Of a DNA stretch of 50,185 nucleotides, positions 15,825 to 19,109 are shown piece by piece; position 1 is the stretch's first letter; every line of letters begins with the position of its first letter. The notes under the pieces were generated by a model. The model saw only the letters and a list, made by a program, of their open reading frames with translations. It ran no database searches and was not told the DNA's origin. The DNA comes from an uncultured Actinomycetes bacterium. GTDB lineage: Bacteria; Actinomycetota; Acidimicrobiia; Acidimicrobiales; Microtrichaceae. The stretch is from the NCBI GenBank assembly GCA_903852755.1, contig CAINRS010000118.1:1-50185 (forward strand), written 5' to 3'. Made by a program: the position numbers and the translations under genes.

Positions 15825-16601
15825 GTGAGCACGACGGTGGCACTCGTCCAGCTCCGGTCCGACGACTCCGAACCGGTGGCCGATCGCGTCGACCGGGCGC
15901 TCGCGCTCACCCGCGACGCCGCCGGCCCCGCCGACCTGGTGGTCCTGCCCGAACTGTGGGTGTGCGGGGCCTTCGACGTCGAGGGTGCGCAACGACTCGC
16001 CGAACCGGTCGACGGCCCGCTCGTCGCAGCGTTCCGCTCGGTGGCAGCGACGGCCGGTACGTGGATCCACCTCGGGGCGGTCCCGGAGCGCGACGGTGAG
16101 CGGACCCACAACACCTCGGTGGTCCTGGCACCCGACGGCACCGTCGCCGCCACCTACCGCAAGCGTCACCTGTTCGGTTTCGACGGCGGCGAGACGACGC
16201 TGATGACTGCCGGCGACGATCTGGTGGCGCTCGACACCCCGCTCGGGCGGACCGGGGTGGCCACGTGCTACGACCTGCGGTTCCCGGAGCAGTTCCGGTC
16301 GCTCGTCGACCTGGGAGCCACGGCGTTCCTGATGGCCTCGGGCTGGCCGGAGCGGCGGATCGAACACTGGCGGGTGCTGCTGCGGGCCCGGGCCATCGAG
16401 GATCAGGCCTGGGTCGTCGCCTGCAACGGCGTGGGAACCCAGGCCGGCGTGACCCTGGGTGGCCGCTCCGCCGTGGTCGACCCCCTCGGTACGGTGGTCG
16501 CCGAGGCCGACACCGGTGAGGAGGTGCTCGTCGCCACGATCGACCCGGCGCTACCCGAACGGTGGCGGCACGAGTTCCCCGCACTCGACGACCGGCGCTG
16601 A
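15825..16601 (+). CDS. Carbon-nitrogen hydrolase (nitrilase superfamily), omega-amidase-like
   Basis: About 258 residues, normal length. The catalytic triad is visible: Glu in LPELWV, Lys in YRKRHLFGF, Cys in GVATCYDLRFPE. The YRKRHLF and CYDLRFPE context resembles omega-amidase/NIT-type amidases acting on small carboxamides. The exact substrate is inferred. It is the first gene of a compact run: 26 bases to the DinB-like gene, which is then overlapped by the SDR gene, itself overlapped by the FMN oxidase gene. Confidence 0.88.
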   Translation: MSTTVALVQLRSDDSEPVADRVDRALALTRDAAGPADLVVLPELWVCGAFDVEGAQRLAEPVDGPLVAAFRSVAATAGTWIHLGAVPERDGERTHNTSVVLAPDGTVAATYRKRHLFGFDGGETTLMTAGDDLVALDTPLGRTGVATCYDLRFPEQFRSLVDLGATAFLMASGWPERRIEHWRVLLRARAIEDQAWVVACNGVGTQAGVTLGGRSAVVDPLGTVVAEADTGEEVLVATIDPALPERWRHEFPALDDRR

Positions 16602-16627: not shown

Positions 16628-17194
16628 GTGTACGAACTGGTGCTGGACTCACTGCGACGGCGCATGCGCGCCATGCACTCGCTCTACCACGACGCGACGG
16701 CGACCATGACCGTGGAGCACGTCAACCACGTCGAACGCGACGGCGTGCTCCCCATCGCGTTCTCGTTGTTCCACTACACGAACATGGAGGACGCCGCGTT
16801 CATGGTGCTCGCCGGGGCACCACCGATCTGGGACGCCGCCTGGCAGGACCGCGTGGGCATGGCGATCGACGACCACGGCAAGGAGCGGACCGTCGAGGAG
16901 ATGGTCCACCAGCGTGTCGGGGACTACGAGGCGTTCCGCGAGTACCAGCGCGCCGTGTTCGACCGGACCGAGTCGTGGCTCGACACGCTCGTCGGACCCG
17001 AGCTCGACGAAGTCCTGGTCCCGCGGCCGCTGCCCCCGGTCGTCGCCAACACCTACTCGGCCCGGGTCGCCGGCCCCGAGGGCATCCGGCGGCTCGACGG
17101 GATCGAGTGCTGGCTGTACCAGCACGGACTGCGGCACATGGGCGAGATCGAACTCGCACGGGGCTTCGTCGGCCTGGGCGGGATGACCTCGTGA
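16628..17194 (+). CDS. DinB-like four-helix protein
   Basis: About 188 residues. The helical pattern and scattered conserved His residues (EHVNHVERDGVLP, LFHYTNMEDAAF, HGLRHMGEIELARG) resemble the DinB/YfiT superfamily, whose members bind a metal with three His and often act as thiol-dependent transferases or have no known role. GTG 16628 follows AGGAGG closely, deciding the start. The TGA overlaps the GTG of the next gene (GTGA), so production is coupled to the SDR. The biochemical role is not known. Confidence 0.7.
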   Translation: MYELVLDSLRRRMRAMHSLYHDATATMTVEHVNHVERDGVLPIAFSLFHYTNMEDAAFMVLAGAPPIWDAAWQDRVGMAIDDHGKERTVEEMVHQRVGDYEAFREYQRAVFDRTESWLDTLVGPELDEVLVPRPLPPVVANTYSARVAGPEGIRRLDGIECWLYQHGLRHMGEIELARGFVGLGGMTS

Positions 17195-17946
17195 ACGCGG
17201 CGACTCCGGAGGGCCGCCGGGTGGCGCTGGTCCACAACGCCAGCGCGTACGTCGGTCCTGCGATGTGCCGCTGGTTGGCGGCCCACGGTCACGACCTGGT
17301 CGTCGCCGAACCGGCCGTCGGGCTCGTCGACGAGCTCACGGCGCTGGGCTCGACCGTCGAGGTGGCCGAGGGTTCGTCCAACCCTGCCCGCGAGGGGGCC
17401 ACCGACGCGCTCGTGGCCGCGGCGTTCGGTCGCTTCGGGCGTCTCGACGCCGCCGTGGCCGCGTCCGGGCAGATCGTGGGCGGACGCTTCGTCGAGGACG
17501 CCACCTTCGAGGACTTCGAGCGGGTCGTGCAGGGCTGCATGGAGGCACCGTTCCGGTTCCTCAAGTCGGTGGTCCCGGCGATGATCGACCACGGCGGCGG
17601 GCAGGTGCTGGTCATCACCAGCGCCACGGCGGCGCGCGCCACCAAGGGCGCGCCGCTCTACTCCATGGCGCGCGCCGGTGCGACGCACCTGGTCCGCAAC
17701 GTGGCCGCCGAGGTCGCCCGGCGGAACGTGCAGGTCAACGCCATCGGGACGAACTTCATGGACTTCCCCGAGTTCCGGGCGGCGACCGGAGCGGACGAAC
17801 CGGCGGTCCGTGAGCGCATCGAGGCCGCCGTCCCCATGGGTCGGCTCGGGACCATGGAGGAGTTCGCCGCCATGTGCGGCGTGTTCCTCGACGGGACGAG
17901 CCGGTTCACCACCGGCCAGTTCGTCACGTACGCCGGGGGCTGGTGA
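17191..17946 (+). CDS. Halohydrin-dehalogenase-like short-chain dehydrogenase/reductase
   Basis: About 251 residues, SDR fold, but not a standard SDR. The glycine-rich NAD(P) motif is replaced by HNASAYVG (residues 15-22), and the catalytic set is Ser144-x12-Tyr157-x3-Arg161 (ITSATA... YSMAR) instead of YxxxK. Ser-x12-Tyr-x3-Arg and an aromatic-x-Gly in place of the glycine loop are the hallmarks of halohydrin dehalogenases, which form epoxides from vicinal halohydrins without cofactor. The C-terminal GRLGTMEEF and TGQFVTYAGGW also fit HheC from memory. The published first motif needs Thr where this protein has His15, so dehalogenase activity is inferred, not certain. Residues T187-N188-F189 align with the halide-pocket PNY of HheC. 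Start and stop overlap both neighbours by 4 bases. Confidence 0.75.
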   Translation: MNAATPEGRRVALVHNASAYVGPAMCRWLAAHGHDLVVAEPAVGLVDELTALGSTVEVAEGSSNPAREGATDALVAAAFGRFGRLDAAVAASGQIVGGRFVEDATFEDFERVVQGCMEAPFRFLKSVVPAMIDHGGGQVLVITSATAARATKGAPLYSMARAGATHLVRNVAAEVARRNVQVNAIGTNFMDFPEFRAATGADEPAVRERIEAAVPMGRLGTMEEFAAMCGVFLDGTSRFTTGQFVTYAGGW

Positions 17947-19109
17947 GCGACGTGGATGCGGACCGGCGGAGCGGCGCGGCCAGCGACGACACGGCGGCGC
18001 AGTTCGTGGACCTGCACGACGTCGAGGCCGCAGCGGCCGGCCGACTCGACGAGATGACCCTCGGGTACTACTCGGGCGGCGCCGGGGAGGAGCGGACCCT
18101 GCGGGCGAACCTGACGGCCTGGGGGGAGCTCGACCTCTGGTACCGGACCCTGGTCGACGTCGCACACCGGTCGACGGCGACGAGCGTGCTCGGCTGCGAC
18201 CTGCCGGTACCGATCCTGGTGGCGCCCACGGCCCTGCACCGCCTCGCCCACCCGGACGGGGAACTGGCGACTGCACGGGCGTGCTCGCAGGCCGGCGTGC
18301 CGATGGTCGTGTCGAGTCTGTCGTCGACGCTGCTCGAGGACATCTGCGCAGCGACGACCGCTCCGGTGCTGCTGCAGCTGTACATCGGTGCGCACCGGGC
18401 GGTGACCGAGGCCTTGGTGGCCCGGGCCGAGGCCGCCGGGTGTGTGGGTGTCCAGCTCACCGTCGACACCCCGATCTGGGGTGACCGCCACCGTGAACGC
18501 CGGACCGGGTTCCACCTCCCCGACGGGATCGACGTCGTCAACCTCACCCGGCACGCCGGACTCACCCGGCAGTCCGGACCGGCCGGGGCACCTGCCGACC
18601 GGTCGAGCGGGACCGGCGGCATCGGTGACGTCCTCGGTTGGACCGTCTCGCCGTCGGTCACCTGGGACGACCTGGCGTGGCTGTGCGACCTGACCCCGTT
18701 GCCGGTGCTGACCAAGGGCGTCGTCAGACCCGACGACGCCCGGAGGGCACTGGCCGCCGGTGCCGCCGGAGTGGTGGTCTCCAACCACGGCGGGCGTCAG
18801 CTCGATGGTGGTCCGGCGACAGCACGGGCGCTGGGGCCGGTTGCGGCCGCGGTGCGGGCCGCCGATCCGGCGGCCACGGTGCTGGTCGACGGTGGGGTCC
18901 GCAGCGGGGCCGACGTGATCCGGGCGCTCGCGCTGGGGGCGGACGCGGTCCAGTTGGGTCGTCCGGTGCTCTGGGGCCTGGCCGTCGGCGGACAGGACGG
19001 CGTGGCACAGGTGCTGGACCTGATCGCAACGGATGTGGACCGATCCATGGCACTGACCGGCTGTGCCTCGCTCGGGGACGTCACGGCGGATCTGCTCCAC
19101 CCCGGGTGA
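17943..19109 (+). CDS. FMN-dependent alpha-hydroxyacid oxidase/dehydrogenase
   Basis: About 388 residues, TIM-barrel flavoprotein of the glycolate oxidase/lactate dehydrogenase (L-2-hydroxyacid) family. Visible motifs: YYSGGAGEERTLRAN at the N-terminus (substrate Tyr), PILVAPTALHRL, TVDTPIWGDRHRERR, PVLTKGV (FMN Lys), SNHGGRQLDG (catalytic His and substrate Arg), VDGGVRSGADV and GRPVLWGLAVGG (phosphate binding). It would oxidise an L-2-hydroxy acid to the keto acid. GTG 17943 overlaps the SDR stop (GTGA). It is the last gene of the operon; the next gene is convergent. Confidence 0.9.
   Translation: MSDVDADRRSGAASDDTAAQFVDLHDVEAAAAGRLDEMTLGYYSGGAGEERTLRANLTAWGELDLWYRTLVDVAHRSTATSVLGCDLPVPILVAPTALHRLAHPDGELATARACSQAGVPMVVSSLSSTLLEDICAATTAPVLLQLYIGAHRAVTEALVARAEAAGCVGVQLTVDTPIWGDRHRERRTGFHLPDGIDVVNLTRHAGLTRQSGPAGAPADRSSGTGGIGDVLGWTVSPSVTWDDLAWLCDLTPLPVLTKGVVRPDDARRALAAGAAGVVVSNHGGRQLDGGPATARALGPVAAAVRAADPAATVLVDGGVRSGADVIRALALGADAVQLGRPVLWGLAVGGQDGVAQVLDLIATDVDRSMALTGCASLGDVTADLLHPG

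Follow-up and report, generated by a model that had tools for sequence, protein, structure and literature searches.

The window, a stretch of 50,185 nucleotides from an uncultured bacterium of the Acidimicrobiales (GenBank contig CAINRS010000118.1), contains an apparent operon on the forward strand in which a carbon-nitrogen hydrolase gene is followed by genes for a DinB-fold protein, a predicted halohydrin dehalogenase (HHDH) and an FMN-dependent oxidase. HHDHs are used in biocatalysis. The features of the locus are as follows.

15825..16601, + strand: carbon-nitrogen hydrolase (PF00795), first gene of the apparent operon
16628..17194, + strand: DinB-fold protein, its start placed at a GTG after AGGAGGT
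17191..17946, + strand: predicted G-type HHDH of the short-loop branch, 251 residues, GTG start and TGA stop (assigned from sequence, fold and tree)
17233..17256, + strand: motif 1 region HNASAYVG, residues 15-22, with His at the place of the published Thr and with Tyr20 and Gly22 kept
17620..17622, + strand: Ser144 of the predicted triad, kept in 119/119 distinct sequences
17659..17661, + strand: Tyr157 of the predicted triad, kept in 119/119 distinct sequences
17671..17673, + strand: Arg161 of the predicted triad (Lys in ordinary SDRs), kept in 119/119 distinct sequences
17746..17769, + strand: GTNFMDFP block, residues 186-193, strongly conserved
17943..19109, + strand: FMN-dependent alpha-hydroxy acid dehydrogenase/oxidase (PF01070)

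GTGA overlaps join the stop codon of the DinB gene to the start of the HHDH gene, and the HHDH stop codon to the start of the FMN oxidase gene. Because of these overlaps, and because residues 8-251 of the translated ORF align with solved HHDHs (up to 2e-96), we consider the reading frame to be real. The gene order carbon-nitrogen hydrolase, DinB, HHDH and FMN oxidase also occurs in L016-L019, assigned to genomes G027, G030, G029 and G031 of the window's genus. In another genome of the same genus, G028 (96% complete), the carbon-nitrogen hydrolase, DinB and FMN oxidase genes are contiguous and the HHDH gene is absent (L204, contig C14:41000-50000); a search of that genome gave no HHDH match at an E value of 1e-40 or 1e-20. 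This empty site indicates that the HHDH gene was lost in G028 or gained elsewhere in the genus. The notion that the operon partners are obligate partners of the HHDH is weakened, since G028 has all three without it.

The DinB-fold protein (16628-17194) weakly matches the model of the mycothiol transferase Rv0443, with 43 bits for a cut-off of 170. Its His set is invariant in 12/12 aligned rows, and the gene was detected in 80/397 genomes of the order, only one of which had more than a single match. The best NCBIfam model for the carbon-nitrogen hydrolase is deaminated glutathione amidase, at 119.8 bits versus a cut-off of 355. A nitrilase reading of this protein, with cyanide opening followed by nitrile hydrolysis, was considered and set aside.

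Assignment to the G-type halohydrin dehalogenases

A sequence-only reading of the ORF had proposed resemblance to HHDHs, and the residues that it cited are present in the translated protein. HNASAYVG replaces the SDR glycine motif at residues 15-22, S144-x12-Y157-x3-R161 stands instead of Ser-Tyr-Lys, the length is 251 residues, and MGRLGT and TGQFVTYAGGW are found on the C-terminal side. Of the three cofactor glycines, two have given way to Asn16 and Tyr20, and the signature of NAD(P)-dependent SDRs, TG-x3-G-x-G with Y-x3-K, is missing, the corresponding segments being HNASAYVG and YSMAR. HHDH motif 2, S-x12-Y-x3-R, is present, as is an aromatic-x-Gly replacing the cofactor loop (Tyr20-Val-Gly22). 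The strict HHDH motif 1, T-x4-F/Y-x-G, is broken by His15, which occupies the place of its Thr, as had also been noted. This pattern is not a product of chance, since S144, Y157, R161, Tyr/Phe20 and Gly22 are near-universal across 119 distinct sequences. With loose patterns, 14 other SDR-like loci of the same genome gave 11 frames with TG-x3-G/A-x-G and YxxxK, doubtful matches only in L008 and L014, and no match in L005.

Comparison of the window protein with all PDB chain sequences by phmmer yielded 171 distinct matches, and the ranking given here comes from the best 60 of these. G-type HHDHs fill the first eight places among the distinct sequences, several of them deposited as "putative oxidoreductase" and identified as HheG. 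The best is 7wkq (325 bits, 2e-96); AbHheG 8h8y reached 276 bits (2e-81), 8hqp 270 bits and five HheG sequences 164-168 bits (about 1e-47). Chains beyond the G-type HHDHs scored at most 86 bits, which was the score of the "dehalogenase" 6a41; 7b73, an SDR according to its deposition, had 82 bits. Halohydrin epoxidases A and B and HheC follow the same two-motif logic and reached only 60-72 bits in this ranking. The likeness to HheC that had been noticed earlier is real but weak (64 bits for HheC 1pwx, versus 164-168 for HheG and 325 for 7wkq), and an HheC-like identity was rejected because the match is far weaker than that to HheG.

We built a tree of 75 rows from G-type HHDHs and 11 SDRs, other HHDH types being compared by score alone. 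The window protein grouped with HheG to the exclusion of the SDRs, and this split had an SH-aLRT value of 100. Clustering with NAD-binding SDRs, which had been named beforehand as the outcome that would speak against an HHDH, was thus not seen, as all 11 SDRs fell outside the G-type clade. An AlphaFold2 model, calculated from the window protein together with 51 relatives, had a mean pLDDT of 90.3. Rows 1-25 of a Foldseek search and rows 1-8 of a VIA-align comparison (Z 38.3 to 31.2) were G-type HHDHs throughout. In the latter, AbHheG had a Z of 38.3 (rmsd 1.3, 244 residues), HheG 34.6-34.9 (top row, rmsd 1.5, 244 residues) and 7wkq, a chain with only 205 residues, 31.2 (rmsd 1.4), and the best NADP-bound SDR had a Z of 30.7 (rmsd 1.7, 236 residues). 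Because SDRs share the fold (Z 31-38 versus 30.7), Z alone would not decide between HHDH and SDR; sequence scores and the tree decide the matter, with the predicted fold in agreement.

If the protein were an NAD(P)-dependent SDR oxidoreductase that happens to have YxxxR, this would account for the overall fold, for SDR folds aligning at a Z of about 30, and for the Pfam and NCBIfam matches, which are to SDR models. However, these NCBIfam models, all SDR among the best 25 of 184 matches, score far under their cut-offs, the best at 104.6 bits for a cut-off of 215. The two replaced glycines, the 164-325 bits of the G-type HHDHs against 86 or fewer for other PDB chains (among the best 60 of 171), and the exclusion of all 11 SDRs from the clade make this identity highly improbable, and we rejected it on scores and tree, the fold agreeing. 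As NCBIfam offers only SDR models below their cut-offs, automatic annotation would probably label the protein an SDR oxidoreductase. The earlier proposal of a halohydrin dehalogenase thus holds by PDB scores, tree and predicted fold. We are confident that the gene is to be classed as a cofactor-independent G-type HHDH, belonging with 7wkq and AbHheG in the short-loop branch. Its product is very probably an epoxide-making and -opening enzyme, by prediction of a type described before in related actinobacteria.

The motif threonine, the loop and a proposed mechanism

The protein 7wkq (Acidimicrobiia bacterium) is 64% identical to the window protein and has the same triad and short 36-48 loop, but Gly at the Thr place where the window protein has His15. 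It matches a protein of the MAG Baikal-deep-G22 in the stretches compared (L024), a locus in which the HHDH gene alone was found of the window genes searched. AbHheG (8h8y; Acidimicrobiia bacterium; 56% identity) also has a short loop, and Ser instead of His15. According to the accessible part of a mutagenesis report, only Ser gave an active enzyme among HheG Thr13 mutants (PMC11976700); the residue of AbHheG is thus the sole replacement that HheG tolerated, whereas the His of the window protein is not. HheG of Ilumatobacter coccineus (5o30, 6i9v, 6i9w) shares about 42% identity, the triad and a GTN-MDFP block. It differs in having the motif 1 Thr and a flexible loop that is 12 residues longer, with 25 residues in the 36-48 stretch compared with 13. 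The flexible loop 39-47, used as a mark of the G type, is thus short in the window protein, which shares this trait with 7wkq and AbHheG. The long version occurs in 3/144 rows, duplicates kept (the HheG PDB row, L198 and L200). We do not treat the loop as defining the G type, because PMC11536340, in its accessible part, terms a short-linker protein an HheG homologue. L200 is one residue apart from 6i9v, and that residue is the T123G mutation of the PDB entry, which indicates that genome G163 carries HheG itself. L196, L197 and L199 combine the Thr with a short loop and group with HheG (SH-aLRT 100), and the loop and the Thr were thus not changed together.

Conservation was determined over 119 distinct non-PDB sequences, among them the window protein and the genomic copy of HheG. 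The Ser-Tyr-Arg triad is intact in all of them. The motif 1 Gly is present in 117/117 sequences with a residue at that place (2 gaps), and the aromatic residue is Tyr in 110, Phe in 5 and His in 2, with 2 gaps (Tyr or Phe in 115/117). In contrast to these near-universal residues, the Thr place holds Ala in 59 sequences, Asn in 20, Thr in 10, Ser in 9, Gly in 9, His in 7, Pro in 1 and Asp in 1, with 3 gaps: Thr is found in 10/116 sequences with a residue there, and the other 106, the window protein included, lack it. The new observation is that, judging from their sequences, most of the G-type relatives in our sample lack the supposedly essential Thr. N188 and F189, suggested earlier as candidates, with Y20, for a halide pocket, are invariant in a 52-row alignment (A1), and Tyr or Trp occurs at the place of F189 in some more distant relatives. 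L177 and L194, which branch away from the other members of the G-type clade, keep the Thr and have His for the motif 1 aromatic residue (HLGP).

The published filter for mining HHDHs is T-x4-F/Y-x-G (PMC4989007 among its sources, in the accessible text). It misses most of our sample, since only 10/116 sequences have the Thr. That residue is an unsafe criterion for HHDHs, because 7wkq (Gly) and 8h8y (Ser) lack it, because two natural HHDHs are reported to vary at this place (PMC11976700, accessible part), and because 106/116 sequences here are without it. Mining by this motif would skip the majority of these G-type relatives, which are a possible source of new biocatalysts. His15 could be unfavorable, since HheG stayed active only with the Thr-to-Ser change; by itself, it is no sign of a non-dehalogenase, as the Thr place is naturally variable. 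The changed Thr had been interpreted as the mark of a new sub-branch or of a related non-dehalogenase. The branch turns out not to be new, as two members have been crystallized (7wkq and AbHheG) and Thr variation has been reported, and the second suggestion does not follow from His15 alone, given the variability of the place and the 106/116 sequences without Thr. The window protein is a further member of a known, little-described branch with a short loop and no motif Thr. A structural puzzle remains, in that HheG tolerates only Thr-to-Ser in the accessible mutagenesis data, yet Ala and Asn are commonest one branch away.

HheC and HheG interconvert halohydrins and epoxides and accept azide, cyanide and similar anions in the reverse reaction. 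By homology to these enzymes, Ser144 and Tyr157 would hold the substrate oxygen, and Arg161 would lower the pKa of Tyr157. Tyr157 would take the hydroxyl proton of a vicinal halohydrin, and the resulting alkoxide would displace the halide to form the epoxide. In the reverse direction, an anion held at the SDR cofactor place, lined by Tyr20-Val-Gly22 and probably by the GTNFMDFP loop, would open an epoxide, which, as with HheG, is probably bulky or internal. The GTNFMDFP block is presumed to be close to the nucleophile site, a role assigned from sequence. His15 would stand for the published Thr, as do Ala, Asn, Gly and Ser in relatives. Parts of the HHDH mechanism are described in the accessible text of PMC4989007.

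Sulfatase genes near HHDH genes and the natural reaction

In the accessible part of a 2016 review, only two of the HHDH genes then known shared an operon with an epoxide hydrolase gene, and other physiological functions of HHDHs are said not to be excluded (PMC4989007). Relatives for a first survey of gene neighborhoods were found with query peptides, and the best 80 of 90 were kept, which makes the set lean toward the query. After gene calling and clustering in these 80 loci, the commonest neighbor cluster besides HHDH was a large sulfatase, found in 37 loci, and by hand count an ORF with the CxPS/TR sulfatase motif, from one of several clusters, was present in 38/80. Three sulfatase representatives matched PF00884 with 124-225 bits. 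One of the representatives was closest in the PDB to arylsulfatase entries, e.g., 4cxk (298.5 bits) and 1hdh (296 bits), which we take to be from Pseudomonas. In L062, L066 and L072, a second sulfatase type lies directly upstream of the HHDH gene on the same strand, at 12 to about 80 bases, and the L072 sulfatase protein also has a DJ-1/PfpI-like domain. The sulfatase and HHDH genes are similarly close in L079 and L084, the spacing in these two and L072 being about 10 to 80 bases.

A second set consisted of HHDH matches with E values up to 1e-45; it also leans toward the query and overlaps the 80-locus set. Such matches were found in 58/397 genomes drawn from the order, which makes HHDH an accessory gene. 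For linkage, we used 60 HHDH genes in 57 other genomes plus the window (61 loci), with about 10 kb per side where the contig allowed. A sulfatase gene was present in the fetched stretch of 20/61 loci, versus 2.2 expected from Pfam PF00884 counts with positions taken as random, and none of one million random draws gave more than 12 linked regions. The link was seen in 7/18 families (1.9 expected) and 12/37 genera (2.1 expected), and drawing a single locus per family or per genus gave means of 3.4 linked (0.55 expected) and 10.4 linked (1.2 expected), respectively. Arrangements vary. The sulfatase gene may be upstream of the HHDH gene on the opposite strand, mostly at 77 to about 1000 bp; it was also found upstream on the same strand (6 bp), downstream on the opposite strand (10 and 809 bp) and downstream on the same strand (644-1271 bp). 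On a quick tree with SH-aLRT support only, the linked-sulfatase label changed 9 times.

As controls, we used 60 loci of ordinary SDRs from the same genome set, with a total of 947 kb, nearly equal to that of the HHDH stretches. They came from 40/58 genomes matching one SDR, taken from a longer list with five rows skipped and several loci per genome, and control and HHDH genomes were not matched one to one. Over the whole stretch, 7/60 control loci had a sulfatase gene, 6/7 of them in family f53, and the Fisher p value was only 0.008. Within 1.5 kb, a limit chosen after the distances had been seen, the counts were 18/60 for HHDHs versus 1/60 for control SDRs (p 2e-5). Nine of the 20 sulfatase-linked regions belong to the same family, f53. 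The profiles for sulfatase, haloalkane dehalogenase (HLD) and DinB were made from neighbors of the first 80 loci; as these loci and the 58 genomes overlap, detection was not independent. The window locus has no sulfatase or HLD gene nearby; its genome has eight PF00884 matches and one NF002043 (HLD) match over the cut-offs, all on other contigs. No sulfatase was found in the 17 regions whose HHDH scored <360 bits on the local profile, HheG's L200 included. A search for "halohydrin dehalogenase" together with "sulfatase" retrieved no open-access paper. Many of the HHDH genes found here adjoin sulfatase genes, a new lead on natural function.

Two other genes also accompany HHDH genes. An HLD cluster adjoins 11/80 loci, two scanned members scoring 354 and 468 bits for an NCBIfam cut-off of 265, and HLD genes were present in 3/60 HHDH regions versus 0/60 control SDR regions. 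By genome, HLD was found in 52/58 genomes with HHDH (hand count) versus 177/339 without (Fisher, 2e-8, kinship ignored), and it is common in any case (229/397 genomes). DinB genes are located in 16/80 loci by hand count, upstream in some and downstream in others, and in 5 HHDH versus 1 control SDR regions (60 each). They occur in 31/58 genomes with HHDH versus 49/339 without (6e-10, kinship ignored).

These data bear on two accounts of the natural reaction. We regard it as plausible, if short of probable, that the window protein is a G-type homologue whose natural reaction is the opening of an epoxide, or its formation from a non-halogenated beta-substituted alcohol, and that the DinB thiol transferase, carbon-nitrogen hydrolase and FMN alpha-hydroxy acid oxidase process the epoxide or ring-opened product. 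In the accessible part of PMC10099379, HheG, HheG2 and HheG3 use several anions in the ring opening of cyclic epoxides, and various beta-chloroalcohols were hardly dehalogenated by HheG3, "in analogy to its relatives", for which reason "dehalogenase" may misname the natural reaction. The GTGA-coupled operon with DinB and FMN oxidase genes and the frequency of DinB in HHDH genomes (31/58 versus 49/339) favor the same account. However, dehalogenation of chlorocyclohexanol was used to screen HheG (PMC11976700, accessible part), which indicates that HheG accepts a bulky chlorohydrin; HLD co-occurs with HHDH (52/58 versus 177/339), and the three partners do not need HHDH, since they occur without it in one genome of the genus.

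The alternative is a modular pathway for halogenated sulfate esters, in which a sulfatase would free a hydroxyl adjacent to a C-Cl bond, the HHDH would close the epoxide and release chloride, and HLD and the thiol transferase would handle the remaining chlorines and the epoxide. This pathway would explain the sulfatases in 20/61 regions, 7/18 families and several orientations, their proximity relative to control SDRs (18/60 versus 1/60 within 1.5 kb, p 2e-5) and the HLD genes beside 11/80 loci and in 3/60 versus 0/60 regions. We nevertheless consider it unlikely, as the window locus has no sulfatase and its genome's sulfatase and HLD matches are on other contigs, the 17 most divergent HHDH regions (L200 included) have none, 9/20 linked regions are from f53, and controls reach 7/60 over whole stretches. 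The linkage is the part worth following: it suggests a connection with sulfated, halogenated or epoxide-bearing natural products, and puts the question of the natural role of HHDHs into testable form. We hypothesize that sulfated halohydrins are natural HHDH substrates.

An extension that we hold to be improbable is that the G-type HHDHs of Acidimicrobiia form, with FGE-type sulfatases, HLD and the DinB thiol transferase, a loose module dismantling halogenated sulfate esters such as the chlorosulfolipids of freshwater golden algae. If true, it would account for a trait of the G type not shared by other HHDHs, its acceptance of bulky cyclic and internal epoxides. Several of the related MAGs bear lake names, such as LaPlata and Baikal, and these presumably come from freshwater. 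The first description of chlorosulfolipids was from Ochromonas danica, a freshwater golden alga, with Poterioochromonas added later (PMC13413282, accessible part). Among the open-access titles and abstract beginnings listed, which are weak evidence of absence, no report of bacterial chlorosulfolipid breakdown was found. Among the matches listed, at least five genomes have a sulfatase match and an HLD match within about 2 kb of each other and away from the HHDH gene: G163, which is that of HheG (contig C1), G296 (C141), G260 (C20), G038 (C1) and G151 (C195).
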